Both the position numbers and the translations under genes were made by a program. From positions 1 through 64,000 of the forward strand of contig JADBYT010000005.1 in NCBI GenBank assembly GCA_020402865.1: DNA of 64,000 bases. The letters run 5' to 3'. The DNA is from Bacteroidota bacterium. Its GTDB lineage: Bacteria > Bacteroidota > Bacteroidia > Palsa-965. Shown piece by piece: positions 34,373-57,720 of this stretch (position 1 is its first letter; every line of letters begins with the position of its first letter). Below the pieces are notes generated by a model that searched no databases, was not told where the DNA came from, and worked only from the letters and a program-made list of their open reading frames with translations.

Positions 34373-35689
34373 TCATCTCCTCATTCCCACTACACTTTCT
34401 TTACGCACCAGCGAACGTCGTATGTGCAGTGTTTTTGCCTCCATTGGAGTAAGCAAGCTGCTGCCGCTGCGGGTTGCATGCATTATGATGAGCTGATAAA
34501 ACAAAATGCCGTAATTGGTTTCGCCAAAAATGCCAAATTCGGTAAATGAATTGATGAGCAGCGGAATCATCATCCCGTAATACATCAACTTTGTTTCTGT
34601 GTTTTCTGCGCGATTGAAACCGCGTATAGTAAATACCATTTGAAACAACACAATTGCAAAACCCACAAAGCCAAGATTCATGAGCACCTGAATAAAGGTA
34701 TTGTGTGTCATTTGTCCGGCGTAGGTGTGTACGCCTTGAAAATAATCTTTGTACGCAATGCGCATAAACCCAAAGCCAAAGAGCGGTTCTTTGGGTAAAC
34801 CTTCAGTGAGCAGAGCTTCCCAGAAAGGCAAACGCCCCGTCATGCTCATTACTTCATCAAGTCCGCCGCCACCTTCCTTAATCATGATTTTTTCAACGGC
34901 CACAGGCACAGCCAGCAAAGCGCCGATATACATTGCAGCTTTAAGTTTACGATTATCGGAGCGTTTGATGTGAAAGAAGAAAATGAGCAGAAGACCAATG
35001 GTTGACGAACGGGAGCCAGTCATTACCAACGCATACACCAGCACCAGTACTTTAGTGATGGTCCATACTTTATTTGATTTATTGTAAAGATCAAACAACA
35101 AACACGAAACGCCCAATGCACAAAGCATTCCAAGTTCATTGGGGTTCATGAAATACCCCCCCAGTCTGGCTTCTTCGCCACCATGTGTCATGCGGTAAAA
35201 CTGATCAGGAGCAATGAACATGCCGGACACAAAAATCAGAATCATTAAAAAAATGGCATTTCCTGTAACCGAATAAAATCTGATGTGATTTCCCGGAAAA
35301 TAGGTATCGAGTAAAATGAAACACTGGATAAAGAAAAAAGCAAACACAAGACTTTGCGCATCCATTACCCATTGTAAAGCACTGTAACCGGGGTTGGTTG
35401 ACCATAACAATGAAACGAGACCAAGCAACAGATAGGCAACATACAAAAGGATGGCACCTTTATTCTTCCATCCAAAAGATGCAACAGCACCACGTTTCAC
35501 AATGCTCCACTGCACGGCAAATACAGACACCACCATGAGCATACGGCTGGCTACTTTCAGTACGCGTGTTATGGCCACATTTTCGCTCCACGTAAAGAAG
35601 CCGCCTATCATGATAAACAGAATAAGCAGGAGCAGCCATTCGGTGCGACGCAGAAAAAGGCGGTGTGCAAATGTCAGATTGCCTTCCAT
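34373..35689 (-). CDS. O-antigen ligase/polymerase (Wzy/WaaL-like)
   Basis: A 438-aa protein with about ten to twelve membrane helices and a large periplasmic loop before the C-terminal helices, as in Wzy and WaaL. Family hallmarks include MTGSRSSTIGLLLIFFFHIK and GFGFMRIAYKDYF with a following TH (QMTHNTFIQVLMNLGFVG). In this locus it most likely polymerises lipid-linked repeat units (Wzy role). It is the last gene of the EPS run and overlaps the preceding glycosyltransferase gene by 16 bases. Confidence 0.88.
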   Translation of the reverse strand: MEGNLTFAHRLFLRRTEWLLLLILFIMIGGFFTWSENVAITRVLKVASRMLMVVSVFAVQWSIVKRGAVASFGWKNKGAILLYVAYLLLGLVSLLWSTNPGYSALQWVMDAQSLVFAFFFIQCFILLDTYFPGNHIRFYSVTGNAIFLMILIFVSGMFIAPDQFYRMTHGGEEARLGGYFMNPNELGMLCALGVSCLLFDLYNKSNKVWTITKVLVLVYALVMTGSRSSTIGLLLIFFFHIKRSDNRKLKAAMYIGALLAVPVAVEKIMIKEGGGGLDEVMSMTGRLPFWEALLTEGLPKEPLFGFGFMRIAYKDYFQGVHTYAGQMTHNTFIQVLMNLGFVGFAIVLFQMVFTIRGFNRAENTETKLMYYGMMIPLLINSFTEFGIFGETNYGILFYQLIIMHATRSGSSLLTPMEAKTLHIRRSLVRKESVVGMRR

Positions 35690-36798
35690 GCTTTTAGATA
35701 GAGTTGCTGAAATTCGGGGATGATACGCTCCCAGCTAAATGCCTGTCTGATCATTTGACGTGCGCCATAGCGAAGTGCGGGCATTTTCCCGTTTTGTACT
35801 TCGCCATAAATTTTACAGAGCGCCTGTTCAACTTCGGATGCCGAAGTGCTGTGAATGACTTCGCCTGCGTGATAATTCTGTACGGCCTCTGCCAGGTTGG
35901 TTGCTTCGCTAATGAGGCAGGGCACACCCAGCGAAGCCGCTTCGAGCACCGATGCAGGTAAACCTTCGTTGCGTGAGGGATGGGCAAAAACAGAAATATA
36001 TTTGAGCAAGGCTGTTTTATCATTGCCAAATCGGCTTCCCCAAAGTTTTACTTTATGCTGAATGCCGTGAGAAACAGTCATTTCGCGCAGCCGTTCCAGT
36101 TCAGCACCATCTCCAATAATCCAAAGTTGTGTGCGGTTGTTGTTTTTGGCAAACTCCGCAAACCCGTCAATGAGGGCATCAAGCCCCTTTGTATATACAT
36201 CAATACGCCCGCAAAAGCCTACGATAAAATCAGCATGTTGTTCGTACCGGGGGGCGCATTCGTCAGCGGCTTCAAAGCCATAGGGAAGTAATGCGGCTTC
36301 CTTACCGGGCATCACTTCGTGCAGGCCGTGTATTTCGCTTTGACCGATGCAATGAACTACGGAAGCGGCTTCGAGGAGTTTACGTTCAAACAATATGGTA
36401 TAAATTTTTTTGCGCAAACTACTTTTGCGTCGGGCAATTGTATTGTAGCTGCCGTGCGGAGTAAATACAAAACGAATATTGTTTTTCTTCATCCACAATG
36501 CAGCCGAATAAAACAGGGGAATAAAGCCACCATGAATATGAAAAACAGCCTTGCCCTTTTTTTGGGCAATTGCCTCGCTTAGCTTTCGGCTCATTGCAAA
36601 CGGATTGCGTGACGCTAAAAACAAGCGTGTGCTGAAATTACGTGGCGGATAATCATGTTCGGGATTCTGTGTAATACCCCAAACCTGCACATTGTGCCCT
36701 TGGGTAGTTTGTTTCGAAGCTAGTTCAAAAACTACTTTATTCACGCCGTTCATCCTTTCGGGATTGGCTTTACCAAGAATCAGATGAATGATTTCCAT
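35674..36798 (-). CDS. GT4-family glycosyltransferase
   Basis: A 374-aa GT-B enzyme: N-terminal acceptor domain (GKANPERMNGVNKVVFELAS) and C-terminal donor domain with GFCGRIDVYTKGLDALIDGF and the retaining-enzyme motif NEGLPASVLEAASLGVP (E-x7-E). It transfers a sugar from a nucleotide donor to the growing lipid-linked repeat unit on the cytoplasmic face. It overlaps its neighbours on both sides (16 and 19 bases), so translation is coupled. Sugar specificity unknown. Confidence 0.93.
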   Translation of the reverse strand: MEIIHLILGKANPERMNGVNKVVFELASKQTTQGHNVQVWGITQNPEHDYPPRNFSTRLFLASRNPFAMSRKLSEAIAQKKGKAVFHIHGGFIPLFYSAALWMKKNNIRFVFTPHGSYNTIARRKSSLRKKIYTILFERKLLEAASVVHCIGQSEIHGLHEVMPGKEAALLPYGFEAADECAPRYEQHADFIVGFCGRIDVYTKGLDALIDGFAEFAKNNNRTQLWIIGDGAELERLREMTVSHGIQHKVKLWGSRFGNDKTALLKYISVFAHPSRNEGLPASVLEAASLGVPCLISEATNLAEAVQNYHAGEVIHSTSASEVEQALCKIYGEVQNGKMPALRYGARQMIRQAFSWERIIPEFQQLYLKAWKAI

Positions 36799-38009
36799 GT
36801 AAGATGATGTTTATGGTGAAGAATAATGAGCCAGTAGCAAAGAGGGAAAAACTGTGCGGCGAAAAGTCCGGCCACAATTGCCAATGCATCAGCCCCGGGG
36901 ATAAGCAATGCAAAAGAAGCAGCCACAACCGATAGGATTGCGCCTGAGAAATAAAGTTGATTGAGATGTAGGCTGCGTAAAGCAGTGCGCACACTATAGC
37001 CCAAAGTAACAAGCAGATAAACTGCAGCGAGTGCCGGAATGATACTGCTGCTATCGGGCACATCGTTACCACCAATAAATTGCATCAGCGGGCGCGCAAA
37101 CAGGCAAAGCACAAGGGCAAACGGCACATACAAAAGCAAAAGTGTGAATGTCATTTTACGTAGTCCGGCTGCCAGTTGTGCGCTGTGTGCGGCAAGGGCA
37201 GCAGCTTTGGGGAGCGCATACGTTTCGGCAGCCTGCAAAATGAGTGTAAACGTGCTAAACAACTGCTGCCCCAGGCGCAACACGCCCAAAGCTGCTGCAC
37301 CCGTTCGTGCAGAAAGCGCCAGCATGAGCAGATTGCCCGAACACCATTGCAGTAAAGCCGTGTAAAATAACCAGCGTCCCTGACGAAAATGTATGCGCAG
37401 GGTTAGATGCCACATACTACGCTGCACAACCGGCCTGCCAAACAACCACATGCTGGCCGCAAGCATGGGGCACAATGCCGCAGCCGATGTGAACAATGCG
37501 TCCTCCACAGTAAGCGTATGGCGCTGCATAAAAAGTAAAGCCAGCAACAACAGCGACACACACACATCAAGCAGAAGCACTGTTTTGTAGTTGCTTCGGG
37601 CAAGCAGTACACGCCGCACACCGTCGGCAGTAAGCTGTGCGGCTGCATACACGCATATAGCCGCCGAAGCAGGAAACAACTGCACAAAGGCAAACGGCAA
37701 TTGTCTGAACAGCAGAACCAGCAAAACAAGTAAAGTCGTAAGCATCACCAGCCCCAGCAACACAGCCTGTGTATATGCCTTACGGCGATGCACCGAAATC
37801 CTGCTGAAGTTTACCTGAAACACACCCGAAATAAATGCCTGCTGCACGGCCTGCAACAAAAAAAGCAAAAGTACCACAGCCGAAAAACGACCATAACCAT
37901 CCACCCCGCTTGTACGCGCAATGAACAACGACGAAAGCAAGGCAGTACCGCTCACCACAGCCTGATCGGCTACCACAGCCAAACGGTTTATGTACCTTAA
38001 GATATTCAT
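36780..38009 (-). CDS. Wzx-like polysaccharide flippase
   Basis: A 409-aa integral membrane protein with about twelve helices in the MATE/MOP arrangement (AVVSGTALLSSLFIARTSGV near the start, SGVFQVNFSR). It should flip lipid-linked repeat units to the periplasm. It overlaps the Wzc-like gene by 4 bases (ATGA) and the downstream glycosyltransferase by 19. The sequence is divergent; topology and place in the locus support the call. Confidence 0.85.
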   Translation of the reverse strand: MNILRYINRLAVVADQAVVSGTALLSSLFIARTSGVDGYGRFSAVVLLLFLLQAVQQAFISGVFQVNFSRISVHRRKAYTQAVLLGLVMLTTLLVLLVLLFRQLPFAFVQLFPASAAICVYAAAQLTADGVRRVLLARSNYKTVLLLDVCVSLLLLALLFMQRHTLTVEDALFTSAAALCPMLAASMWLFGRPVVQRSMWHLTLRIHFRQGRWLFYTALLQWCSGNLLMLALSARTGAAALGVLRLGQQLFSTFTLILQAAETYALPKAAALAAHSAQLAAGLRKMTFTLLLLYVPFALVLCLFARPLMQFIGGNDVPDSSSIIPALAAVYLLVTLGYSVRTALRSLHLNQLYFSGAILSVVAASFALLIPGADALAIVAGLFAAQFFPLCYWLIILHHKHHLTWKSFI

Positions 38010-40201
38010 GCCTGAGCTTTTTTAATCCGCTTCATCCATGTATGCACAAAGTCTGATGCTTCGCAAACAAACAGCCATGCACTGCGCAAAATGCTGGGTG
38101 TATAATCCGCTCGGTTGAGCACATAAGCGGGGTCGGGCAATCGGAACTCGCTGCACAGCATGTCGTTTTGCACAAGCTGTTTCCTGCGCGTATTGCGCGA
38201 ATCGGTAACGAGAAAATTATGGTCGGCAGCAGCCATAATGCGCAGGGCATCGGGGTTTTTTCGCATACAACCATTGTTCCAGATAATCAGCGTATGTGTT
38301 TGCATCCACTGCTGCATCATTTCACGCAGTGTGCCTGCATTGCGTATTGCCAGCAATTGTTCGCCCTGCATACGGGTAATGCTGCTTGCTGCTGCTGAAT
38401 CAGAAAGTGTATTATCAGCATCGGCAAGCAAGACCGAATAGCCGGCATCTGTTGCCGCAGCGGCAAGCTGCATGCACATAAACTGGCGGCCATCTTTATC
38501 CGTATCTGACGAAAACACAAGCACTTTGCCTGGGTTTAGCTTGTTTCTCAACTCAAGTTCAATGAGCCAGCGACGAAAGAAAAGTTGTTTTTCGGCCTGG
38601 TTTTTGAAAACGGGTACACTTGCATCAAGCGGCAATGATGTATTTCGCTGAAGCGTATCGGCATCATTAACACGGGCTTTTTGAAAATGCACGATATAAA
38701 TAAGCGTAACAGAAGCCAGCATGCCAAGAAAGCCCGCCAGAATGCGAATCAACCCGGCATTGGGCGAAACCGGCTTCCGGGCTGCTTCTGCTGCAGTAAT
38801 AATTCGGTGAAACGAAATGCGCGCTGCCTGTGCAATTTCGGCTTCAGTACGCTTTTCATGCAGGAAGCGGTAAAGTTGTTCGTTTAAACTGAAATCGCGC
38901 TCAAGATCATTCATACGCCTTTCGCGCGAGGGTAGTCCAACAAATACCGCTTCCGCATCACGAATGCCCTGCTCAAGCTCAAAGAGTTTAATGCGCAACG
39001 CTGTTTTCGAATTTGAAATGCTTTCGCGGAGATAAAGAATCAGATCCTGAAGCTTGGCGTCGATCAGTTTTACTTTCTCATGTTCGGCCGTGTAGCGGGT
39101 CAGCAACTCCTTTTTCTCGGCTTGAAGTGCTTTTATTTTAAGCACAATTTCGGTAGAAAGCAGATCCGTAAACTGCTCAAAATTTGGCGCCAGTTCAAGA
39201 AAGCGATCTACCCCTTTTTGAATCGCCGCATGTAAGCTGTCAACCGCCGAAAGGCTCATCTGCACACTGATGTACTGTTTTTTCAGGTCGGATATTTTAC
39301 GCAAATCGGTTTCGGTTTCCTGCTTGATATTTATTATGCGGTGAGTATCACGATACATTTCAATATCATCTTCACTCCTGCTTAGTTTTTTACCATACGA
39401 CTCAAGTTGCTGGTCAAGAAATTTTCGGGTTGTGTCTGCTACCAGAAATTTGGTTTCCACAAAATCATTGAGATAAGCCATTGCCACGGCATTGGCCATA
39501 TCGGCAGCTTTATCAGGCACAGCACTCCGGCAACTGATACGTAATACAGGAACCTCTTTATCAACAGCCATTACATCCAGCTGCCCGCTTATCATTTCCT
39601 TTTGCTTCTTTAAGCTGTTGAATACAAATTCGTAATTATCATTTATTCGTATCTGCTTGTTTGCAGTAATAAATTCGTCGTTTTTCACAATCAGTATTTC
39701 GCCGCCGGCGGTAATAATTTTTTGCCCGAATACCGATTGATGCACTACACCGTCGGGTGAAGTGAGTGTGAGTGTATCGTTACTCACACATAGCTTAAAT
39801 GGTTTATCGAACCAATTTTCTTTGCTGAGATTTACCAGTATGGTAATGGGTGAATTCTTGTACAGTTCTGTTTTATTAATTTTCCCGATGCGTGAAATAC
39901 TTACTTCAAGGTTTAACATGTGCGCTGCCTTTTCCAGCAGTACACCTGATTTTATCAGTTCAACTTCAGCATTTATTTTATTGCTGGTGGCAAACACGTC
40001 AAAATCATTAAACAAATTGGCACCTGACGGGCCATCGTGGTTATCGGCAAGTTTGATGAATGTGGTGCTTTCAAACACAGGAGTGACATAACGCAAATAC
40101 CTGTTTGCAACCAGTACACCAATTGCCATACAAACAATTACGATTGGAATCCCTCTGTAAACGGGACGCAATACGGGAGGCAGAAGTGAGGCAATTTTCA
40201 T
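38006..40201 (-). CDS. Wzc-like chain-length/co-polymerase protein with degenerate kinase domain
   Basis: A 731-aa protein. Membrane helix 1 (PIVIVCMAIGVLVANRYLRY) is followed by a Wzz domain, a long coiled coil (about 250-450, SYGKKLSRSEDDIEMYRDTH), and helix 2 near 490 (LIRILAGFLGMLASVTLIYI). The C-terminal cytoplasmic domain has the shape of a bacterial tyrosine kinase, but the Walker A equivalent near residue 565 is SSDTDKDGRQFM (no GKS/T), Walker A' is LLADAD, and the Walker B Asp is replaced (LIIWNNG). No Tyr cluster ends the protein. It probably still shapes the export complex with the Wza-like protein but should not phosphorylate. Confidence 0.9.
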   Translation of the reverse strand: MKIASLLPPVLRPVYRGIPIVIVCMAIGVLVANRYLRYVTPVFESTTFIKLADNHDGPSGANLFNDFDVFATSNKINAEVELIKSGVLLEKAAHMLNLEVSISRIGKINKTELYKNSPITILVNLSKENWFDKPFKLCVSNDTLTLTSPDGVVHQSVFGQKIITAGGEILIVKNDEFITANKQIRINDNYEFVFNSLKKQKEMISGQLDVMAVDKEVPVLRISCRSAVPDKAADMANAVAMAYLNDFVETKFLVADTTRKFLDQQLESYGKKLSRSEDDIEMYRDTHRIINIKQETETDLRKISDLKKQYISVQMSLSAVDSLHAAIQKGVDRFLELAPNFEQFTDLLSTEIVLKIKALQAEKKELLTRYTAEHEKVKLIDAKLQDLILYLRESISNSKTALRIKLFELEQGIRDAEAVFVGLPSRERRMNDLERDFSLNEQLYRFLHEKRTEAEIAQAARISFHRIITAAEAARKPVSPNAGLIRILAGFLGMLASVTLIYIVHFQKARVNDADTLQRNTSLPLDASVPVFKNQAEKQLFFRRWLIELELRNKLNPGKVLVFSSDTDKDGRQFMCMQLAAAATDAGYSVLLADADNTLSDSAAASSITRMQGEQLLAIRNAGTLREMMQQWMQTHTLIIWNNGCMRKNPDALRIMAAADHNFLVTDSRNTRRKQLVQNDMLCSEFRLPDPAYVLNRADYTPSILRSAWLFVCEASDFVHTWMKRIKKAQA

Positions 40202-40209
40202 GGTGCAGA

Positions 40210-41394
40210 TCAGCGGAAAAAATTAAACACCAGTGCAAGCGCACTAATCACACTGGCTATCGGAATAACAGAGCCTGATTTTTTATCCCACATTTTTCCT
40301 TTGCGCGAAGGCACCACAATAATATCACGGGGATGAAGCTGAATGTTGGTTTCGAGATGCTGGTCGCGGCCGGTAAGATTTACGGTTACCTGCTTTTGCA
40401 ATCCATCTACAATGCGCAACACCTGTATTTGTTTTTTGTCGGCATAAAATTCAAAACCGCCAGACCGGCCAATAAGTTCAATCAGCGTATTATGTTCTTT
40501 TTCGAGCAGATAATTTCCGGGGGTTTTAACTTCACCCAGCATGGTAACTTCTTTGTTTAGCACTTTTACTTCTAAAACCGGATTAACTACCAGCAACGAA
40601 TACTTTTTCACAAGTGTGTCCTTCGCTTCACGCTGTGTTAGCCCACCAATTTTCACACGTCCGATGCGCGGCACAGGAATCATTCCTTCAGCATCCACCA
40701 TCAGCCACTTTCCATATACTTCATTGGAATTGTATATTCCATAAAGAGAGCCCACGCTTAAATCATCGTGATTCCATACGCTGATGGTTACTTTATCATC
40801 TTTACTAATCCGGTATTCATAAAACGGATCATATTTAAAAAAGGCCGTATCGCCCGAAACCAAATCATTTGCAGCCTGCTTTTTCTCAAAGAGATTCTGG
40901 GCAGAACATCCGTTCAGAAAAAAAAGCAGCGGAAAAAACGAAAAAGCAAAAAACAACAACTTCAGATTATTCCAAAATCCACCCTTACGATTATTACCCA
41001 TTTGCTTTTCATGCAATTTAATACGCACCTGCATGATCCGTTCAAGCACATTCGAAATCTTTCCCTGATCGTCCTGACCTTTTATGATGTAGTCAAAGGC
41101 TCCATACTTCAAGGCATCCACAGCTACAGAAATTGATTCCTGCGATGAAATAAAAACCACATAGATGTCTGGATTAATGCGCTTGATTTTCAAAAGCACA
41201 TCCAAACCATCCATATTGTTCATAACATGATCCAGGAAAATAATTTCGGGATGCCCGGTAAGCTGATTAATTGCCTGCTGCCCGTCTTCGAAACAGGTAA
41301 TTTTTGAGTACCCAAGTCTGCGCAGCATTTTCTCATAGATTAACCGGTAAAACGGATCATCATCTACAAGAAAGATTTTTGGATTTTCAAACAT
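40210..41394 (-). CDS. Receiver domain in one frame with a Wza-like polysaccharide export lipoprotein
   Basis: A 394-aa single frame. Residues 1-125 are a complete receiver (REC) domain: acidic pocket D11-D12-D13, phospho-acceptor D55 (IIFLDHVMNNMDG), S83/S84 and K105 (YDYIIKGQ). After a basic stretch comes a hydrophobic segment and lipobox (FFPLLFFLNGC, Cys163), then a polysaccharide export domain (YRISKDDKVTISVWNHDDLS) with GEVKTPGNYLLEKE (SLBB part) and a C-terminal hydrophobic helix (VIPIASVISALALVFNFF). An ATG at 41001 (residue 132, MGNNRKGG) could start a separate lipoprotein with an ordinary signal, but there is no stop or frameshift between the parts. It sits between the hybrid kinase and Wzc-like genes. 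Either a true fusion or two products from one frame. Confidence 0.92.
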   Translation of the reverse strand: MFENPKIFLVDDDPFYRLIYEKMLRRLGYSKITCFEDGQQAINQLTGHPEIIFLDHVMNNMDGLDVLLKIKRINPDIYVVFISSQESISVAVDALKYGAFDYIIKGQDDQGKISNVLERIMQVRIKLHEKQMGNNRKGGFWNNLKLLFFAFSFFPLLFFLNGCSAQNLFEKKQAANDLVSGDTAFFKYDPFYEYRISKDDKVTISVWNHDDLSVGSLYGIYNSNEVYGKWLMVDAEGMIPVPRIGRVKIGGLTQREAKDTLVKKYSLLVVNPVLEVKVLNKEVTMLGEVKTPGNYLLEKEHNTLIELIGRSGGFEFYADKKQIQVLRIVDGLQKQVTVNLTGRDQHLETNIQLHPRDIIVVPSRKGKMWDKKSGSVIPIASVISALALVFNFFR

Positions 41395-41531: not shown

Positions 41532-44378
41532 TTACAAATAAAACTGTCTGATATGCTCAATAACCCCATTCACCCTATCAGTTAAGTCGGCAAATCGTTC
41601 ACTAACTTGAGGAACGGGATTATTGTTTTTCCCTTCGGTTTCAATTTCAGCAAGAAGATTGGTGGATATACCCACATCGTTCAAAGAAGGTTTGATTCGA
41701 TGAGCAATACGACCCATTTTCACAAAATCTCCGGCATCGCAGGCGGCTTTCATTTCTGCCAGTTGAGCGGGAGTTTCCTTTACAAAAATCGTGAGCATTT
41801 TATTCAGAAACACCTTATCGCCAGCCGCAATCTTTAACAGGCGCGAAAGATCCGGTGTATAGTCGTCATTCATTGTATTCTCCCGCAATATAACGGAACC
41901 AATGGCAATCCACTTAAAGACTTTCTGAATGAGTTGCTGCTCTTCAAACGGTTTGGAAAGAAAATCATCCATACCGGCAGCAATACACTTTTCGCGTTCA
42001 CCCGTAAGCGCATTTGCTGTTAAGGCAACTACAGGCAAACCCGTTCCATACAACTGACGAATTATGCCGGTACACTCAACGCCATCCATCACAGGCATCT
42101 GAACATCCATAAGTACAACATCTGCATCCCGTTTTTCTAACGCAAGTACCGCTTCGGCTCCATCGTTGCACACAATTACTTCGGCTCCGTAGCGTTCGAG
42201 AATTGTGGTGGCGAGGAGCTGGTTATAGGAATTGTCTTCAGCAAGCAAAATCGTTTTGCCGCTCAGTTGGCCATCAGGAGTAATATCGGGATGCTGCACA
42301 CTTATATCAGAACTATTTCCGGCAGGCAACAACAAATTAACTTTAAATACCGACCCTAGCCCTTTTGTACTTGCAACCGAAATACTTCCACCCATAAGCT
42401 CAACCAGCTCGCGGGTAATCGCCATGCCCAACCCGGTTCCTCCGTACATACGTGCTGTTGAATCATCTTCCTGACTGAATTTGCCAAACATCTGCGTCAA
42501 AAATTCGTTACTCATACCAATTCCTGTATCGCTTACGGCAAGCTCTATTTCCTGTCCGAGTTTGGCATTCTGAATTACGGTCACCTGAACTGATACTTTG
42601 CCCTGTTCTGTAAACTTTATACTATTTCCGATCAGATTAATGAGTACCTGCGTAATTCTGAAAGGATCGCCAATGAGAACGGGCGTAAGGTTTTCGTCGA
42701 TTTTACATTCAAGCAGAATACCTTTTTCTTCGGCTTTCGAAAAAAGGATGCTGCATACTGTTTTTACAACATCAACTAACGAAAACGTAATACGTTCAAC
42801 AGTTAATTGCCCCGCTTCAATTTTCGAGAAGTCGAGAATGTCGTTAATAATTACAAGCAGGTTGGCACTTGCCGAATTAATGGCATTCACAAACGTGCGT
42901 TGCTTACCGGAAAGCGGCGTATTGAGCAATTGCTCGCCAAAGCCCGAAATCGCATTCATGGGTGTTCGTATTTCATGACTCATGTTTATCATGAACGATT
43001 CTTTGGCTTTAGCCGATTCTTCGGCAAGCTTGCGGGCTGTACGTAGCTGTTCCTCAAGCTCCATCTGATCTGTAATATCCACATGTACGCCAATGCTTCC
43101 GATAACGGTTCCTTTTGAGTCATACATAGGCGCTCCGGAAATCATCCACCACCTGGCCTCGCCGCGTTTGTTACGCACCTGCATTTCATAGGCATCCGAA
43201 ATACCCTGATTCCGTTCTTTCTGCCGGCTATTGAAAGTCTGGCGGAGTTCTTTAGGTAAAAGTAAATCGTATGTTTTCCGGCCCAATAATTCGTCAGTCG
43301 TGTAACCGGAAATATTACAGAACGACTGGTTGGCGTAAACGATTTTTTCTTCAAGATCAACCTCAATGAGTCCGAGGTTCATATTTTCTATAATGCCTCT
43401 GTACTTTTCTTCCTGTTCCTGAAGTTTCTGCTCATAGCGTTTTGCAGCTGTAATATCAGTGTATTTCCAGAGATGCCCCTTGTATTCATTATTCACAAAA
43501 AACGGGATATAATCGCGGTTGAGTACACGGCCATCAGCCATAATCAACTCTTCACCGGTAACAGCTGTTTTCTGTTGGAGCAGGTCATTAATGCGGGCAA
43601 TAAAACCTTCGGGATCCTCGAACAACCCTTTGCTTTGTTCGGCCGATTGTGAACAATCCATACCTCTCAGTTCGGCAGGCGAAAGCGGTATGCTGAAAAT
43701 CTGACAAAAGGTATGATTGATTACCTCAATATGACGCGTTTCACTCTCGAGCAGCACGCCTGAATTGAGGTTGGTAATCATGTGCAAAAGCTTATCTGCA
43801 GCCAGCCGCAACTCTTCTTCTGCATGCTTTTGTTCTGAAATATCAGTATTGACGCCAATTATTCGCAGCGGTTTTCGCTTCTCGTCAACCTCAACGGCAC
43901 AACCACTATCGAGTAACCACTTCCATCCTTCGCGCTTTGAACGCATTCTGAATGCAAGTGTATGTTCGCTTCTTAAACCGGTTGAATATTCTTTATATAC
44001 TCCCAATACCCGGAGCAAATCATCGGGGTGCAGAATGCTAAGCCAGAAATCAACATTATTTTCAAATTCATGGGGAAGATACCCCAATACTGATTTATAG
44101 CGCGGGGAAAATATAATTTCATTTGTTCTGAAATCAACTTCCCACATCCCATCGCCCGACCTTTCGATGGCAAACTTTAGTCTGCTTTCACTTATCTGAA
44201 GTTCATGAGTACGGCTTTGTATTAATGTTTCGAGGGTTTTATTCTGTTCGCTGAGTTTTTCATTCACATAATACAGCTCGCGGCTTTTCATTTCCAGAAT
44301 GCGCTCAGAAGCCTTGCGTGCATTGCGTTCACGCTCAAGCATACGCCTCAGCACAGCAATTTCATCCTCAGCACTCAT
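41532..44378 (-). CDS. Soluble PAS hybrid histidine kinase with receiver and HPt domains
   Basis: A 948-aa protein without membrane helices. An N-terminal coiled coil (1-65) is followed by three PAS/PAC domains (about 66-190, 195-320, 325-445), HisKA with H468 (MINMSHEIRTPMNAISG), an HATPase (NLIGNSIKFT, DTGIGM, GGTGLGM), a receiver with D758 (VVLMDVQMPVMDG) and a C-terminal HPt with H893 (IAHRIKPSLN). All phosphorelay residues are present. It overlaps the H-NOX gene by 11 bases, so H-NOX is the likely input, as with HnoK-type kinases. The HPt can pass phosphate to the receivers of the sigma-54 regulator and of the export protein, both encoded next door. Confidence 0.96.
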   Translation of the reverse strand: MSAEDEIAVLRRMLERERNARKASERILEMKSRELYYVNEKLSEQNKTLETLIQSRTHELQISESRLKFAIERSGDGMWEVDFRTNEIIFSPRYKSVLGYLPHEFENNVDFWLSILHPDDLLRVLGVYKEYSTGLRSEHTLAFRMRSKREGWKWLLDSGCAVEVDEKRKPLRIIGVNTDISEQKHAEEELRLAADKLLHMITNLNSGVLLESETRHIEVINHTFCQIFSIPLSPAELRGMDCSQSAEQSKGLFEDPEGFIARINDLLQQKTAVTGEELIMADGRVLNRDYIPFFVNNEYKGHLWKYTDITAAKRYEQKLQEQEEKYRGIIENMNLGLIEVDLEEKIVYANQSFCNISGYTTDELLGRKTYDLLLPKELRQTFNSRQKERNQGISDAYEMQVRNKRGEARWWMISGAPMYDSKGTVIGSIGVHVDITDQMELEEQLRTARKLAEESAKAKESFMINMSHEIRTPMNAISGFGEQLLNTPLSGKQRTFVNAINSASANLLVIINDILDFSKIEAGQLTVERITFSLVDVVKTVCSILFSKAEEKGILLECKIDENLTPVLIGDPFRITQVLINLIGNSIKFTEQGKVSVQVTVIQNAKLGQEIELAVSDTGIGMSNEFLTQMFGKFSQEDDSTARMYGGTGLGMAITRELVELMGGSISVASTKGLGSVFKVNLLLPAGNSSDISVQHPDITPDGQLSGKTILLAEDNSYNQLLATTILERYGAEVIVCNDGAEAVLALEKRDADVVLMDVQMPVMDGVECTGIIRQLYGTGLPVVALTANALTGEREKCIAAGMDDFLSKPFEEQQLIQKVFKWIAIGSVILRENTMNDDYTPDLSRLLKIAAGDKVFLNKMLTIFVKETPAQLAEMKAACDAGDFVKMGRIAHRIKPSLNDVGISTNLLAEIETEGKNNNPVPQVSERFADLTDRVNGVIEHIRQFYL

Positions 44379-44904
44379 TGCAACTGATTAAAAACTCCGT
44401 TGTGCCATCGGGCAATTCCTTTCGTACAAGAATCAGGCTGGTCTGGTAATAATCACCGCAACCTAAAATAAGTCCTTCGGCCACATCCGCCATTCCACGA
44501 TGCGACTGATATGTAAGTTTTATTTGTTGCTCCGAAATACGCTGAGGCTGAAGCGCAGGTGGTCTGGACTCAGGGTATAATTTCTTTACTTCCACATGTA
44601 TGTGCGTCTCAATCTTCTCAAGAAAGCTGAGCGGATCGGTAATGCCCACTATCATTTCAGGATATTGCGCGGCCAGGCGGCCAAATAAATAACGCCCGTA
44701 CACTTTCAGTAACTCCTCAACAGGTATTCCGGTATGCTTGCTCAGGTTAACCACAAGGTTAACCATTTGTCCGTGCGGATATGACCCAACTGAGGTATAG
44801 CTATCAGACTCAATATTTGGTTGTGAAACAATTATATCAACGGTTTTGATACCAAACCGCTTTTCAACCATTTCAAGGAATTCAGTAAAGATTAAGCCTT
44901 TCAT
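44368..44904 (-). CDS. H-NOX (haem nitric oxide/oxygen binding) sensor protein
   Basis: A 178-aa protein, the normal size for a stand-alone bacterial H-NOX. The proximal haem ligand is H103 in HVEVKKLYPESRPP, with P116 13 residues later as in characterised H-NOX proteins, and the haem-propionate motif Y-x-S-x-R is Y132-S134-R136 (TYQSHRGM). The position equivalent to the distal Tyr that supports O2 binding in the Thermoanaerobacter protein is Val141, so NO rather than O2 is the expected ligand. Genes overlap on both sides: 4 bases with the sigma-54 regulator and 11 with the kinase. It probably inhibits or switches the kinase when NO is bound, as in Shewanella, Vibrio and Legionella systems. 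Confidence 0.93.
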   Translation of the reverse strand: MKGLIFTEFLEMVEKRFGIKTVDIIVSQPNIESDSYTSVGSYPHGQMVNLVVNLSKHTGIPVEELLKVYGRYLFGRLAAQYPEMIVGITDPLSFLEKIETHIHVEVKKLYPESRPPALQPQRISEQQIKLTYQSHRGMADVAEGLILGCGDYYQTSLILVRKELPDGTTEFLISCNEC

Positions 44905-46259
44905 TCGCTCTCGTTTTTTACCTCGCCGTCTTTTATCATTTTGTAAATGGTCGATTTTCCGACATTTAGTTTTTCAGCCACTTTCACAATGTTGTGGTTG
45001 TATCTGCGCAGGTAGGTTTCAATTATTTCGATTGTATATTCTTTCAATGTACGTTCACTGCCCGATAAAACGGATGTGCGTGTGTTGGGTGTAAAAGAAA
45101 TTTCGCTGCTTTTTATTTCGGGCGGATCGGCCAATACAGCGGCAAGTTCAATAATTGATTTGAGTTCGCGCACATTACCGGGAAAGTGATACTGCATGAG
45201 CTTGTTTGCTGCATCGGTTGACAATTTAAGTGGCTGAAGGGCATTCGCTTTACAAAACTCATCGAGAAACGAGCGTGCAAGCAGCAGAATATCATTGCCC
45301 CGCTCACGCAGTGGAGGCAGATGAACCGGAAATCCAATAATTCGGTAATACAAATCCTCTCTGAAACGACCAGCTTTTACTTCCTCTGCAAGGTCTTTAT
45401 GCGTAGCCACAACCAAACGTACATCGAGTGAAACACGTTCATTGCCACCTACGCGGATAAGTTCACGTTCCTGCAATACACGCAGCAGCTTGCTTTGCAT
45501 GGATAAATCCATTTCAGCTATTTCGTCGAGAAAGAGTGTGCCTTTTTCGGCTTCTTCAAAACGCCCGTGCCTGCGTGAAACGGCGCCGGTAAAAGCACCT
45601 TTCTCATGTCCGAACAATTCACTTTCGAGCAACTCCTTTGGGATGGCGGCCATGTTTACAGCCACAAACGGCCTGTTACGGCGGTCGCTGTTAAAGTGAA
45701 TTGCTTTTGCCACCAGCTCTTTGCCTGTGCCCGTTTCGCCGGTAATGGTTACGTTTATGGATGTGCGTATCGCCTTTTCAAGCAAAGCAAATACCTTGCG
45801 CAGCGCGGCACTGTCGCCTTTAATACTATTCGAAAATGAATACTTTTTGCCAAGCTCCTCTTCAAGATACTCCACTTTCCGCTGAAGTGCATGTGTTTCT
45901 CTCGCGGCATTCACTGTTGACCAGAGCAGATCTTTTGTATTCTCGTCTTTCAGCAAATAATCATAAGCTCCTTCTTTTAGCAAACTCACTGCAACAGACA
46001 CATCCTCCTGTGCACTGATAATTACAACTGGAATACCAGGATAACGCTCCCGTATTTTACGAAATAGTTCCTGCCCGGTCATATCAGGCAAGCCATAGTC
46101 TATTGTAATCAAATCAGGAGAAGCTGATAAGGCCTTTAAACAGTCGTGCCCGTTTGTGAACAGCGTAACCGAATTATCCGGATTAAGACTAAGATGATAG
46201 TCAAGAATTTCCCCATACCAGGGATCATCTTCCACAATAAAAATTCTGAATGTGCTCAT
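44901..46259 (-). CDS. Sigma-54-dependent response regulator (NtrC family)
   Basis: A 452-aa protein from the ATG at 46259 (MSTFRIFIVEDDPWYGEILD); an upstream ATG at 46277 is possible. A receiver with phospho-Asp D54 (LITIDYGLPDMTGQE) and K in YDYLLKD is followed by an AAA+ domain with Walker A GETGTGKE, the sigma-54 contact GAFTGA, and Walker B GTLFLDEIAEMD. The C-terminus is a Fis-type HTH (NIVKVAEKLNVGKSTIYKMI). It activates RNA polymerase holding RpoN. It is the first gene of the regulator/H-NOX/kinase set and ends 4 bases into H-NOX. Targets are inferred to be the EPS genes around it. Confidence 0.96.
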   Translation of the reverse strand: MSTFRIFIVEDDPWYGEILDYHLSLNPDNSVTLFTNGHDCLKALSASPDLITIDYGLPDMTGQELFRKIRERYPGIPVVIISAQEDVSVAVSLLKEGAYDYLLKDENTKDLLWSTVNAARETHALQRKVEYLEEELGKKYSFSNSIKGDSAALRKVFALLEKAIRTSINVTITGETGTGKELVAKAIHFNSDRRNRPFVAVNMAAIPKELLESELFGHEKGAFTGAVSRRHGRFEEAEKGTLFLDEIAEMDLSMQSKLLRVLQERELIRVGGNERVSLDVRLVVATHKDLAEEVKAGRFREDLYYRIIGFPVHLPPLRERGNDILLLARSFLDEFCKANALQPLKLSTDAANKLMQYHFPGNVRELKSIIELAAVLADPPEIKSSEISFTPNTRTSVLSGSERTLKEYTIEIIETYLRRYNHNIVKVAEKLNVGKSTIYKMIKDGEVKNESE

Positions 46260-46389
46260 AACGTGCAGGGAAGTCACAGACGAAACTTTCTTTCGTGTTT
46301 ACATGATGGATGAAATGATGAGTTACATGATCTGTTTACTTATTTTACTGAAATACAGATTGGATTATATTATCCTGAATTTAAATGTA

Positions 46390-46467: not shown

Positions 46468-47547
46468 CTACTTATAACTTCTTTCGTTTTCTCTTACCAT
46501 GTTTTTCCATTTTTCGAACCGGGCGATGGCTTTTACAAACCTTGTAAAGAGCAGTACCATAGTAAGCTGCACAAGCAGAATATATGTCGTATCTAATTTA
46601 TCTATGGTAAAAAGTGAAAACAGGAGAATACCTATCTGCAACACAAAAATGTGTTTCACAGCCGAGGGGTGATTGTTTCCTGCCAGCAGCAACCAGTGAT
46701 GCAGATGACTGCGATCGGCCATAAAAGGCGAACGTCCTGACCCGATCCGATAAGCAAACACACGTAAAGCATCGGCCACGGGAAGAATAAGTATAGCCGA
46801 AACTAATGCAGCATACGGATGTGCAGTAGTGTTTGCCCCCTGTTCAAGAATAGTCATACCCGACGCCGCCAGCAAAAATCCCAGCATTTGCGAACCGCTG
46901 TCGCCCATAAAAACCGAGGCTGGTGTAAAATTGTATTTTAGAAACAGAACCAGTGCTGCAATAAAAGGCAACAGCAGCAACAGCATTGATGTTGATCCGC
47001 ATAATAAAAAAAGAATACTGAATACAGTAAGCCCTGTTAAAGCCAGCACACCCGAAAGTCCGTCGATTCCATCGATAAGATTAAACGCATTGGTGGCTCC
47101 GGCATAAATAACCGTACTTAACAGAATCTGGGCCGGCCATGCAAGTTCATACACGCCAAACACACCGTGCAACGATTGCAGCCTGAGCCCTGAGAGCGAA
47201 AGCAAGGCACCACAGCCCAACTGCACCAGCAAACGCATCAACGGCCTGAGGTTTCGCTGATCGTCCCATGCGCCTATGCCGCAAAGTACAAGCAATGCAA
47301 GTGTTTCAAACAGGTGCGAAGCCAGAAAAGACCGGCCCGTTTCAAACATAACCAGAGCTCCAAACACAGAAAGAGCAATAACTACACCGCCGGCTGCCGG
47401 CACCGGCTTAATATGTTTCTTTCGGTTGTCAGGCTTATCAACCCAGCCTTTATGCAAATAGACACGAATGAAGGCCGGAAAAAGCAAGGTGGCCAGCAGA
47501 AATGAAACTCCTGCCATGAGTAATGCCTGAGTGAGATGTGTGTGCAT
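46468..47547 (-). CDS. WecA/MraY-family undecaprenyl-phosphate sugar-1-phosphate transferase
   Basis: A 359-aa polytopic membrane protein with about ten to eleven helices. It has KKHIKPVPAAGGVVIALSVF near the N-terminus, the catalytic segment NAFNLIDGIDGLSGVLALTG, and the SHLHHWLL motif in a cytoplasmic loop. The family transfers a HexNAc-1-phosphate from UDP-sugar to undecaprenyl phosphate, which here would prime the EPS repeat unit. Its start lies 2 bases after the DUF1972 glycosyltransferase stop; 208 bases separate its end from the regulator gene. Confidence 0.93.
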   Translation of the reverse strand: MHTHLTQALLMAGVSFLLATLLFPAFIRVYLHKGWVDKPDNRKKHIKPVPAAGGVVIALSVFGALVMFETGRSFLASHLFETLALLVLCGIGAWDDQRNLRPLMRLLVQLGCGALLSLSGLRLQSLHGVFGVYELAWPAQILLSTVIYAGATNAFNLIDGIDGLSGVLALTGLTVFSILFLLCGSTSMLLLLLPFIAALVLFLKYNFTPASVFMGDSGSQMLGFLLAASGMTILEQGANTTAHPYAALVSAILILPVADALRVFAYRIGSGRSPFMADRSHLHHWLLLAGNNHPSAVKHIFVLQIGILLFSLFTIDKLDTTYILLVQLTMVLLFTRFVKAIARFEKWKNMVRENERSYK

Positions 47548-51207: not shown

Positions 51208-51932
51208 ACTGCCGCACGTTGCTGGTTTGTAAATTCAGTTGCTTCATACCGATTGCGCAGCAACCGCGCGGGCACGCCCCCTAAAATGCTGCCCGGCGGA
51301 AAACTGCGGTTAACTACAGCACCCGCGGCAATAACACTACCCTCACCAATACTCACCCCGTCGAGTATGGTTACTTTGCTGCCAATCCAGCAGTTATTGC
51401 CAATACGGATACCGTTTCTTGTTACGCCCTGAAAGCGGATAGCCTGATCAGGGTCTGCTGTAATATGATTTTCGGGATGACAACTGAAATACTGACCAAT
51501 AATGCACTCGTCGCCAATTTCCAAACCACCTGTGCCACCGAGGTAAGCAAATTCGCCCATACCCACACTGTTGCCGATGCGGATAAAACCACAGGGCTGT
51601 TGCGGCGATGTGCAAACTACCAGACGGCTGTATGCTCCAATGCTTACATTGTTGCCAAGCGTAATTCCGCCGCTGCTCATACTGCTCAGTAACACACCAT
51701 CACCAAGCCGGAGAAAACGCCCCCAGCTGATGCGGCGAAGATTGAAAAAAACAACGCCCCGGCCGGCCAGCAGCATACGCGGGTGTTTCATAAAAACAAG
51801 CACACGCATACCACGCAGCAAACAAAACAATTGCTGAAAACAAAACAATAACAGCATACGTGCATCCGCCGCATCCGAAAAAGTAAAATTCGGATTACGC
51901 CTGCGGATGAGTTGTTCAAGCCATTTTTTCAT
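51204..51932 (-). CDS. Hexapeptide-repeat acyltransferase (LbH fold)
   Basis: A 242-aa protein. An N-terminal helical/hydrophobic part precedes a left-handed beta-helix of hexapeptide repeats (ITLGNNVSIGAYSRLVV, IRIGNNCWIGSKVTILDGVS, IGEGSVIAAGAVV) and the end GGVPARLLRNR. A catalytic His is plausible in CHPENHITADP. WcaF/WcaB-like enzymes O-acetylate EPS sugars with acetyl-CoA. It overlaps genes on both sides (17 and 4 bases). Confidence 0.92.
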   Translation of the reverse strand: MKKWLEQLIRRRNPNFTFSDAADARMLLLFCFQQLFCLLRGMRVLVFMKHPRMLLAGRGVVFFNLRRISWGRFLRLGDGVLLSSMSSGGITLGNNVSIGAYSRLVVCTSPQQPCGFIRIGNSVGMGEFAYLGGTGGLEIGDECIIGQYFSCHPENHITADPDQAIRFQGVTRNGIRIGNNCWIGSKVTILDGVSIGEGSVIAAGAVVNRSFPPGSILGGVPARLLRNRYEATEFTNQQRAAV

Positions 51933-54375
51933 ACCTGCTGAAGATTATGGTTTCGATCTGTGAAATAGTTTGCTTCAGGTCGAGATTCTGAACAGGCACA
52001 TAACGACGCGGAGCGCTCACTGCAGCCGTTCTGAAAAAATTCAGGTATCGATCCATTATTGCACTTATAGCTGTCCGGCTCATTTCCTGTTTGCGCGCAT
52101 AAATCACTTCAACGGGCGCATACAAGAAGAAATTGAAATCGGGCTTGAGCAAAAACTTGTAACACAACTTCGCCAGACGTTGCGGTAAGCGAATATTACT
52201 GCGCTCGGGATTATGAATGAAATCAAAATAATACCGATCATAAATAACAATATCACCTCTGAGATTATATCGAAAGAATACATAAAACTGCCCGAATAAA
52301 TAATCGGCATAGTAATACGTAAACCGAAGCAGTGACGAAACTTTGCCTGATTGTGCATGTGTTGTTGGCATTGCATCGGTGGCCAGCTTTTCGGCCTTCG
52401 CTTTGCCGTGGCGCCACGCGCTTATGATGGGCAGCACAGACGGACGGTGACGCAACACCACAACACGGCGGCGTGTGCGTTTTTCAATTCGCTCGCGAAG
52501 TGTATTGATTACAGTGCTCTTGCCCGCACCGTCAACACCGCTGAATGTGACAATGAAGCCGGGTGATACAAAAAACGAACGCAGCACATCAGCATAATAT
52601 TCGATCCGGTTCCGGGCAGCAACCAAACCCTTATTACTTTTCAGTTCACCAATAACCCTGAGCGGGTTTGGCTGCTGCCGGATATTTAAAAGCTGAACAA
52701 AATTTTCGGCGCCCAGTTCCTGTGCTGTTTTATCGAGCACCTGCCGCTGCACTGCATAGCGGCTGAAATAATACAAACGGTAACGTTCGCTCAACGCTGC
52801 TCCGTTGAGCCGTGCAAACAACCAGCTATAAGTTAAATCATCTGCCAGCGATGCAATGCGGATACCGGTGCTTGTTGTTTCTGCATTATTAAGCACATCA
52901 GCTGTATTCATAAACTGTAATGCTTTGCGTTTGAATTTGTGAATACAATCCACTGAAAGCATTTCGCCGTTTGCAAGCACAACGGCAATAACCGTTCGGT
53001 GAAAATATCGTGTAACATTGACACGCTTTACAAAAGCATGCCGCTTAAAAAAGCTGATAATTATTGCTGTTGTTTTTGGCGTTGCACAAAGATCAATGTC
53101 AGACCACTCATGCAATTCCCAGGGCTGCGCGCCGCATGATTTCAGCCAGGCGTACTGCTGCATCCGGACTGATGAGAAAAAATCGCGGAGCAGCAGCTGC
53201 CTGTATTGAGAAGGGTCCTCAAGCGTTAAATGATCATTCAGGGCTTCGTTCCAAACCTCCATAAGCCAGTTGGTTTGAACATGCCAGCTATTTTGTTTCG
53301 ACCAGCTTTGCAGCGAAGACGTAATTACGGTGTAGAGATATTGCTGTTCAAGCAAGTCGAGGTTGATTCCTATTTTATCCGTAAAACTCCTGCAACAGGG
53401 CAAATCAAAAAATGCATCTATTGTCTTTCTGATTTGTGCATACGAATGGCGGTTGATAAGCACAGCCTGCTGATACATAAAATGAAATGCATCAAAAAAA
53501 ACAGGGTATGATGTGTCAAACATTTCCCAATCCCACGCAATCAGCTGGTTCTCTGCAGCCCGTGTATTCCACGGTGTAAAATCGCCATGCGCCGGCGCTG
53601 TAAGACAGGTGTCATACTGACCAAGATGTTTGGCAAGCTGGTCGAGTTTTGAGATCAATGCCTTACTGATGTGCTTGTTGTTGTAGCGCAACAGACTGAG
53701 GTATGTGGTTGATCTTTGCCACCAGGCAGAGGCCACACGGTTTTGTTCGGTAATTGAACCTGTAAACCATTCGGAAAGTGTGGCAAACGGAAAATCGGAA
53801 AGCGATTTCGGATATGCTGCGCCCGGAACGTTTATATCACTGAGCTGATGAATATCGTTCTGCAGCAATTTATGCTCAGGCACAACCAACCCGCATACCG
53901 GATGCAGGTTCAGCCGCTTCAATGCTGCCGCTTCGTTGCTGAGCTGATGTTTGGCCTGCTCACCAACAGGTACTTTTATAAATGTTACGCCCTCGGCATC
54001 ACTGAGCCGAAAAATGGCTTTACGGTTCGGGCCAACCGTACCGGTAAAAAGCGCCCAGTTTTTCCCTGCCAGCGGTGAGCCTTCCGGGACAACTAGAAAA
54101 CCGGAAGAACTCACAAACAACCGCTGCAGGTTTATCGCAAAAAGCAAACGGATAAACATCACCATTGCAGCAGCCCGAAAACTTCCCACATGATAGAAGT
54201 TTAAAAAATCAGGCTGCTGCGCTTCCGAAGGCCATGCCCAGCGGATTGTTCCGTCGGGATTGTTGCGGCAATACACCTTTACTTTGCTGTGTGAACTGCC
54301 TGATTGCGGATAAACAGCTTCGGCAATGGCCTGTAACTCGGAAGGTGATGTAAATAAGTTTGCTTGTTGTGCCAT
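51916..54375 (-). CDS. Three-domain protein: APH-like kinase, nucleotidyltransferase-like, thymidylate-kinase-like
   Basis: An 819-aa protein from the ATG at 54375 (MAQQANLFTSPSELQAIAEA); an upstream frame to 54456 is less likely. About residues 100-330 form an aminoglycoside/choline-kinase-like domain with the Brenner motif HGDFTPWN (H263) and IAWDWEMF. Around 400-520 a nucleotidyltransferase-like domain carries HEWSDIDLC (D426, D428). Residues ~605-819 resemble thymidylate kinase with P-loop FSGVDGAGKST (K619) and YDRYYFDF. It is the first gene of the EPS run. It may phosphorylate or nucleotidylate a sugar or lipid precursor; substrate unknown. Confidence 0.85.
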   Translation of the reverse strand: MAQQANLFTSPSELQAIAEAVYPQSGSSHSKVKVYCRNNPDGTIRWAWPSEAQQPDFLNFYHVGSFRAAAMVMFIRLLFAINLQRLFVSSSGFLVVPEGSPLAGKNWALFTGTVGPNRKAIFRLSDAEGVTFIKVPVGEQAKHQLSNEAAALKRLNLHPVCGLVVPEHKLLQNDIHQLSDINVPGAAYPKSLSDFPFATLSEWFTGSITEQNRVASAWWQRSTTYLSLLRYNNKHISKALISKLDQLAKHLGQYDTCLTAPAHGDFTPWNTRAAENQLIAWDWEMFDTSYPVFFDAFHFMYQQAVLINRHSYAQIRKTIDAFFDLPCCRSFTDKIGINLDLLEQQYLYTVITSSLQSWSKQNSWHVQTNWLMEVWNEALNDHLTLEDPSQYRQLLLRDFFSSVRMQQYAWLKSCGAQPWELHEWSDIDLCATPKTTAIIISFFKRHAFVKRVNVTRYFHRTVIAVVLANGEMLSVDCIHKFKRKALQFMNTADVLNNAETTSTGIRIASLADDLTYSWLFARLNGAALSERYRLYYFSRYAVQRQVLDKTAQELGAENFVQLLNIRQQPNPLRVIGELKSNKGLVAARNRIEYYADVLRSFFVSPGFIVTFSGVDGAGKSTVINTLRERIEKRTRRRVVVLRHRPSVLPIISAWRHGKAKAEKLATDAMPTTHAQSGKVSSLLRFTYYYADYLFGQFYVFFRYNLRGDIVIYDRYYFDFIHNPERSNIRLPQRLAKLCYKFLLKPDFNFFLYAPVEVIYARKQEMSRTAISAIMDRYLNFFRTAAVSAPRRYVPVQNLDLKQTISQIETIIFSRYEKMA

Positions 54376-54390
54376 GCCAACAGAATTACG

Positions 54391-54404
54391 ATTGGCATGC
54401 CAAT
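54391..54404. promoter_or_regulatory. Perfect 14-bp palindrome upstream of the EPS operon head
   Basis: Attggcatgccaat reads the same on both strands and lies 16 bases before the ATG at 54375. A partial copy (gccatgccaa) overlaps that ATG. It could be an operator or a degenerate sigma-54 core (TGGCAT with G at -12). Confidence 0.3.
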
Positions 54405-54476
54405 ATTGCATCGTGCTGCTATTCTGATACTTACAGAAACTGCATGTTTGCAGCACTACAAATTCGGGACAGGCAT

Positions 54477-57561: not shown

Positions 57562-57720
57562 GGAATATTGCGTGAAGAATAATAGGGGCTTATAAAAATA
57601 AGCAATATCCGCCATGGTAATTCCGCGAAAGAAAGAAACAGGTATTTCCTGCATATCGAAAACATTTTTGTATTCCCTTTCCACACACGTAAACCACATG
57701 CGCAAACGCGGTTTGTTTTG

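Follow-up and report, generated by a model that had tools for sequence, protein, structure and literature searches.

In current models of the PCP-2 class of polysaccharide co-polymerases (PCP), a cycle of tyrosine phosphorylation is essential to the cycling of the octamer (PMC12004946; this and the other papers are cited for the parts of them that we consulted). In bacterial tyrosine (BY) kinases, half of the octamer interface is made by the motif EX2RX2R (PMC3795738). BY pseudokinases, both separate and fused, are already known (PMC12004946), and the exopolysaccharide (EPS) pathway of Myxococcus uses the pseudokinase EcpK (PMC12004946) as well as a single-domain regulator, EpsW (PMC12802240). 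Here we describe a Wzc-type co-polymerase encoded at 38006..40201, on the minus strand, of a 64,000-nucleotide stretch from a Bacteroidota bacterium (assembly GCA_020402865.1, contig JADBYT010000005.1, positions 1 to 64,000; this whole stretch is called the window, and its contig C5). With E. coli Wzc, a PCP-2a BY-kinase (structures 3la6, 7nhr and 9r62), it shares the Wzz domain, the GNVR domain and the kinase fold, whereas the Walker A and B motifs, the octamer motif and the tyrosine tail present in E. coli are missing from it. The neighbouring gene encodes a phosphorelay receiver fused to the export protein Wza. What is new here is the pairing of such a pseudokinase with a dedicated receiver and with interchangeable sensors of the nitric oxide (NO) type; searches of the open-licence literature turned up no report in which a whole family is paired with its own receiver and with H-NOX or FIST sensors.

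The kinase-like domain of the Wzc-type protein

The minus strand of the gene is one open frame, while its plus strand contains many stops and is non-coding. The features of the protein are as follows.

38006..40201, minus strand: Wzc-type PCP-2a polysaccharide co-polymerase with a predicted BY-pseudokinase domain, 731 amino acids (aa)
39923..40162, minus strand: Wzz domain, residues 14-93 (Pfam PF02706, 7.3e-7)
38693..38908, minus strand: GNVR domain, residues 432-503 (Pfam PF13807, 2.9e-11)
38096..38680, minus strand: degenerate BY-kinase-like domain, residues 508-702 (structure alignment to 3la6_E)
38564..38584, minus strand: place of the EX2RX2R octamer motif, now LFFRRWL, residues 540-546, motif lost (alignment)
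38480..38512, minus strand: degenerate Walker A, SSDTDKDGRQF, residues 564-574 (alignment)
38411..38434, minus strand: Walker A' equivalent, VLLADADN, residues 590-597 (alignment)
38267..38290, minus strand: degenerate Walker B, LIIWNNGC, residues 638-645 (alignment)
38189..38209, minus strand: family-specific motif VTDSRNT, residues 665-671 (D[STA]RxT in 39 of 44 members)
38096..38119, minus strand: family-specific motif LNRADYTP, residues 695-702, usual form LNRxGYNP (alignment)
38012..38092, minus strand: C-terminal helix, residues 704-730, in place of the tyrosine-rich tail (DSSP on the model)

For the C-terminal part of the protein Pfam yields no more than a P-loop trace below the threshold (CbiA, 0.094). 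AlphaFold2, run on 35 family rows, produced a model with a mean predicted local distance difference test score (pLDDT) of 82.8, and the top Foldseek matches of this model are E. coli Wzc chains, which match its fold over the full length (9r68, E 3.5e-34). When residues 508-702 were aligned with VIA-align to the kinase domain of E. coli Wzc (3la6_E), the result was Z 20.9 (192 residues, 15% identity, root-mean-square deviation 2.7), and the match to CapAB (3bfv_A) was almost as good (Z 20.7). These matches show that the kinase domain has retained its place, size and fold, as a preliminary description of this DNA had claimed for place and size, and together with the Pfam hits they show a Wzz domain, a GNVR domain and a BY-kinase fold combined in one protein.

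For a comparison of the motifs, the protein was aligned with 11 Wzc proteins whose kinase is intact, all from genomes in the same taxonomic family as that of the window. The same preliminary description had read SSDTDKDGRQ as a Walker A equivalent lacking GKS/T, LLADAD as Walker A' and LIIWNNG as a Walker B without its aspartate, and had reported the tyrosine-rich tail as absent; the alignment bears out all of these assignments. At the Walker A site arginine and glutamine replace the kinases' lysine and threonine or serine, and the Walker B aspartate is replaced by tryptophan. Only 2 tyrosines are present in the last 40 residues, in comparison to 10-12 in 10 of the 11 intact kinases. The aspartate pair of Walker A' is retained, though it is gone in many relatives, and so is the asparagine of the LN(G/R) strand. 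A functional Walker A elsewhere in the domain, which had been named beforehand as a finding that would overturn this picture, was not found: GK[ST] occurs nowhere in the 731 aa, and thus a P-loop hidden in another part of the protein is ruled out. Taken together, the alignment and the model suggest that the domain has lost catalysis and may serve as a pseudokinase scaffold.

Extent and history of the pseudokinase family

Named genomes were scanned with the receiver-Wza protein of the window, which gave 41 loci (L018-L058), nearly all from Bacteroidota and one from a Balneolia bin. A relative of the window's Wzc is present in 40 of them, and in the remaining one (L052) the DNA ends before the position of Wzc. 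When the Wzc protein itself was used as a query against 392 genomes spread over the phylum, 8 genomes matched, its own included. The seven others match at E <= 6.2e-147, while intact Wzc proteins lie at about 1e-30 to 1e-40, and this gap argues for a discrete pseudokinase family. Among the 12 genomes of the window's taxonomic family, only its own carries the receiver-Wza gene (a search at the level of the order covered the same 12), and no member of the pseudokinase Wzc family was seen in the other 11. In a phylogenetic tree the 46 family rows are separated from the 11 intact Wzc with support of 100/100, at a join for which the tree program warned of long branches. L035 and L045 form the first branch of the family (99/95 for the remaining rows), and the window clusters with L018, L019, L020 and L033 (100/97).

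Motifs were counted in 44 distinct full-length members, that is, leaving aside L026 and L030, in which Wzc is cut, and L059 and L060, which are copies of L037 and L022. GK[ST] is kept in 5 of them (L018, L035, L038, L045, L063) and the Walker B aspartate in 7 (L021, L031, L035, L046, L047, L054, L055), but the two occur together in L035 only, and EX2RX2R was found in none (0/39 full-length rows in a first count). All three are kept in each of the 11 active relatives. A local accident in the window can therefore be dismissed, as the loss is family-wide, and the fact that different lineages retain different remnants points to a relaxed catalytic constraint after a common loss of use. Since L035 and L045 lack the tyrosine tail and EX2RX2R while GKT is still present, we infer from this one basal branch that the tail and the octamer motif were probably lost first. 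It needs to be added that the basal L045 has a receiver, an H-NOX protein, a hybrid kinase and a sigma-54 regulator alongside its GKT, and that L035, with both Walker motifs, has a receiver about 6 kb off, which is what one would expect if the receiver predates the decay of the Walker motifs.

The dead kinase-like domain is under purifying selection. Its ratio of nonsynonymous to synonymous substitution rates (dN/dS) is 0.10-0.13 in 7 of 10 close pairs, in which the remainder of the protein has 0.05-0.08; the other 3 pairs were dropped because dS was saturated. Positions newly conserved in the family are D[STA]RxT and LNRxGYNP, the former in 39 of the 44 members.

The dedicated receiver, its kinase and the NO-type sensors

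Just upstream of the Wzc gene, the window encodes the receiver and the components of a phosphorelay.

40210..41394, minus strand: fusion of a receiver with Wza, an outer membrane polysaccharide export (OPX) protein, 394 aa (PF00072 3.2e-22, PF02563 2.7e-17, SLBB_2 3.2e-9; model pLDDT 86.1)
41020..41394, minus strand: receiver domain, residues 1-125, with phospho-acceptor Asp55, Ser83 and Lys105 (PF00072 3.2e-22, alignment)
40906..41001, minus strand: region joining receiver and Wza, with a possible internal start at Met132, a signal-sequence helix and the lipobox FLNGC (Cys163) (sequence)
41532..44378, minus strand: hybrid histidine kinase with PAS, HisKA, HATPase, receiver (REC) and histidine phosphotransfer (Hpt) domains (Pfam; Hpt below the cut-off, 24.3 bits vs 24.6)
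44368..44904, minus strand: H-NOX (heme NO-binding) protein (HNOB PF07700 2.9e-39; PDB H-NOX 6ocv 6e-37)
44901..46277, minus strand: receiver and sigma-54 activator, NtrC-like (Pfam)

The three Pfam matches of the first entry confirm the receiver-bearing export protein that the preliminary description had placed beside Wzc. Both the motif loss and the receiver fusion which it reported are real in the window; the loss turned out to be shared by the whole family, and almost every relative encodes the receiver and Wza in two genes of their own. Among the 40 loci of the receiver-Wza search which hold both, the two are adjacent in 38, fused in L020 and about 6 kb apart in L035. As this set was chosen with both proteins, the unbiased count comes from the search with Wzc alone: a receiver followed by Wza lies just upstream of Wzc in 7 of 7 such loci (L059-L065; two carry a Wzc identical to those of L037 and L022, and five are new), whereas a receiver of this kind was found at E 1e-3 in none of 8 stretches around an intact Wzc (two from the genome itself, six from relatives), with 4 Wza among these stretches.

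A receiver fused ahead of the Wza lipoprotein signal sequence was observed in the window and in L020 (L020:498-1706). In the model of the window's protein, the last receiver helix continues into the signal sequence as one predicted helix, 109-160. Because the receiver precedes the lipobox, Wza is probably cut off from it during export; judging from the sequence, either a signal peptidase II cut before Cys163 or a translation start at Met132 would yield a separate receiver and a separate Wza. In L064 (L064:600-860) the receiver ends in a hydrophobic tail with a final cysteine, a few bases before a Wza frame with its own lipobox; this arrangement may be an intermediate on the way to the fusion or away from it.

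The acidic pair, the acceptor aspartate, the serine and the lysine, read from the alignment, are retained in 41 of 41 receivers. These proteins thus keep the residues of phosphorylation and have no output domain of their own (the window's is fused to Wza). Those of L021, L035 and L045 end in a clear transmembrane stretch (hydropathy 2.1-2.4), and most others in a short helix resembling KPSLLKSLFKFL, whose mean hydropathy is low.

In the window the H-NOX gene lies between those of the sigma-54 regulator and the hybrid kinase, and its product retains the proximal histidine and the YxSxR motif (YQSHR). Among 31 loci with a hybrid kinase, H-NOX lies beside it in 10, FIST in 15 (by phmmer, 15 of all 41 loci), both in none and neither in 6; of these six, L025 and L028 bear HNOBA within the kinase, and L029, L039, L053 and L057 do not. 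H-NOX and the NosP-like FIST swap at the same operon place (window 41532-46277; L022, L031, L032, L045). All 3 FIST proteins that were scanned contain PF08495 and PF10442, and that of L022 has no sequence relative among solved structures. NosP-type FIST proteins are heme-based NO sensors that set the activity of kinases (PMC12570481). The occurrence of two unrelated NO-type sensor families at one operon place is the best hint of the signal, and NO is most likely the input of the operon. Hpt was also matched in the kinases of L028, L029, L032, L039 and L045, weakly in that of L053, and was unmatched in those of L022, L025 and L057.

Between its hybrid kinase and its receiver, L040 encodes a large protein with FG-GAP/UnbV-ASPIC matches that ends in a type IX secretion tail (L040:5197-9810, the only one of these run through Pfam), and open reading frames of similar size are present in L030, L039, L049, L050, L053 and L057. 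The same interval of L043 holds an AbiEii-type toxin gene (L043:8678-9511).

The rest of the operon, which is conserved across related loci, includes the following genes.

34373..35689, minus strand: Wzy-like polymerase (PF04932 5.2e-16)
35674..36798, minus strand: glycosyltransferase (Pfam)
36780..38009, minus strand: putative Wzx flippase (no Pfam match; assigned by hydrophobicity and conserved place)
46468..47547, minus strand: WecA-like polytopic phosphoglycosyl transferase (PF00953 2.1e-32)

For a separate active tyrosine kinase elsewhere in the genome, which the preliminary description had proposed to look for, there are two candidates: intact-kinase Wzc proteins (TIGR01007 above cut-off) are encoded on contigs C15 and C39 only, with two weaker matches on C25 and C10. 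The two low-molecular-weight tyrosine phosphatases of the genome are on C15 and C26, and none was found on C5. With all matches on other contigs, a separate kinase or tyrosine phosphatase in the locus is ruled out. The two large monotopic transferases of the genome are on C28 and C15, and phmmer with these two as queries found none in the 41 loci, which likewise removes a monotopic transferase within the locus as a target of the receiver.

Further along the window, a protein of 846 aa whose C-terminal part resembles thymidylate kinase is encoded amid glycosyltransferase genes (51916-54456; its remainder has no Pfam match at 1e-4), and two proteins with type IX secretion tails are encoded beside the polysaccharide locus, one with HYR and ALK/LTK glycine-rich domains (55336-57705) and one with lamin-tail and SprB repeats (60292-61803).

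Possible modes of control

We propose that the pseudokinase co-polymerase forms part of a Bacteroidota Wzx/Wzy export operon which would be regulated as follows. To judge from the protein families, H-NOX or FIST would sense NO and set the activity of the hybrid kinase, and phosphate would pass through the kinase's own REC and Hpt to two receivers. One of them, the sigma-54 regulator, would act on transcription; the other would be the dedicated receiver whose gene lies next to Wza and Wzc. The latter would be anchored at the inner membrane by its C-terminal helix, or in the window by the Wza signal sequence, and would switch the Wza-Wzc complex post-translationally, in place of the tyrosine phosphorylation of E. 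coli. To this overall scheme of a scaffold, an NO-sensing relay and a receiver that switches Wza-Wzc after translation we give an even chance. A fuller version we put forward tentatively, at somewhat less than that: Wza-Wzc may have come to be switched directly by a membrane-held receiver, phosphorylated on aspartate, instead of by tyrosine phosphorylation, so that NO, through H-NOX or FIST, would gate export without cyclic di-GMP (c-di-GMP). At the base of the family the tyrosine tail and the octamer motif would have been lost and the receiver gained, the Walker motifs would have eroded later in each lineage, and in the window the membrane helix of the receiver would have merged with the signal sequence of Wza. 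The preliminary description had suggested that control moved from tyrosine phosphorylation to the His-Asp relay; the degenerate kinase and the tie of the receiver to the family (7/7 vs 0/8) stand, and the substitution of aspartate for tyrosine phosphorylation is itself plausible.

Several points weigh against the direct switch. The action of the receiver on Wza-Wzc, though the most likely one, is the least certain step. Most receiver tails are amphipathic only by eye and low in 19-residue hydropathy, so by this measure membrane tethering is not general. The comparison of 7/7 with 0/8 lacks phylogenetic independence because the receivers travel with the clade. H-NOX proteins can bind gases besides NO. 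On the stretches covered, 10 of the 41 loci were not counted with a regulatory kinase, partly owing to contig ends. A scan for sigma-54 promoter sites gave 39 matches (<=2 mismatches) where 53.3 were expected, that is, no signal, and the strict pattern occurs in 4 of 65 loci. Finally, in the closest worked-out case, EpsW/EpsZ, the single-domain regulator acts on a phosphoglycosyl transferase (PMC12802240).

The receiver could instead have its target at a different step, like EpsW with EpsZ, or do no more than pass on or drain phosphate. If, next to the same scaffold, its target were the phosphoglycosyl transferase of the first synthesis step, or Wzy, the WecA-like transferase of the operon would be at hand; yet EpsW targets large monotopic transferases, of which the comparison with the genome's own two found none in the 41 loci and which in this genome lie elsewhere, and the receiver adjoins Wza and Wzc rather than the transferase. 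That no monotopic transferase was found there favours another target, Wza-Wzc being the one closest by, and we consider an EpsZ-like target rather unlikely. We find it unlikely, too, that the receiver just serves the sigma-54 regulator as a sink for phosphate or as a step in its relay, with purely transcriptional control and a co-polymerase that has no switch. One hybrid kinase would indeed serve two receivers, and DifD is such a sink in Myxococcus (PMC12802240), but a sink needs neither a place by Wza and Wzc, nor a fusion to Wza (window, L020), nor a membrane stretch (L021, L035, L045); moreover, L018 and L019, both from Pedobacter, have kept the receiver with Wza and Wzc while no sigma-54 regulator was found on the DNA covered.

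Tyrosine control might also persist, if the domain still bound a nucleotide or another ligand, or were trans-phosphorylated by an intact kinase. The retained A' aspartate pair and LN(G/R) asparagine, the two kinase-intact Wzc in the genome and the GK[ST] still found in 5 of 44 relatives are compatible with this, but the exchanges of P-loop lysine for arginine, of serine/threonine for glutamine and of the Walker B aspartate for tryptophan, the missing tyrosine tail and EX2RX2R, and phosphatases on C15 and C26 with none on C5 make it quite improbable. To a decaying gene without function, which the erosion of Walker motifs differing by lineage might bring to mind, we leave next to no probability: the pseudogene reading was rejected on the intact frame and the purifying selection on the dead domain, and the operon is conserved in related loci.

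Should the direct switch of Wza-Wzc by the receiver be true, a family without the Walker motifs, the tail and the octamer motif, in which the domain is nevertheless maintained by selection and a receiver of its own is present, would show that the octamer cycle can have an alternative driver, and it would be a clean test system for that cycle. NO would then gain a route to polysaccharide export that could bypass c-di-GMP; gas sensing may directly control a machine that exports sugar polymers.

Among the known systems, EcpK/EpsV of Myxococcus xanthus likewise has a kinase fold without Walker motifs or tyrosine tail, and a scaffold role has been proposed for it (PMC12004946). It ends in a C-terminal helix instead of the tail, rich in lysine and arginine, and the window's Wzc also ends in a helix; however, EcpK is a separate protein, whereas the pseudokinase of the window is fused to the co-polymerase, and the consulted part of PMC12004946 names no adjoining receiver or NO sensor for EcpK, unlike in the family described here. 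A co-polymerase and a BY pseudokinase in one polypeptide, as in the window, are found in Sinorhizobium meliloti SMc01795 and Vibrio vulnificus VV1_2305 (cited in PMC12004946), which belong to other phyla, are likened here by description only, and have no link to a receiver or phosphorelay described in that part of the paper. EpsW/EpsZ of M. xanthus is similar in that an output-less receiver is tied to a Wzx/Wzy pathway, but EpsW is driven by a chemosensory kinase and acts post-translationally on a monotopic transferase (PMC12802240), while the receiver described here has its place beside Wza-Wzc, and its presumed kinase is a hybrid one accompanied by H-NOX or FIST. In the H-NOX and NosP/NosK/NosR circuits the gene of a heme sensor lies by those of a histidine kinase and a receiver, as it does here; the outputs named for them in the part of PMC12570481 consulted are proteins of the c-di-GMP type, whereas the neighbours in the window are an exporter and a sigma-54 regulator.

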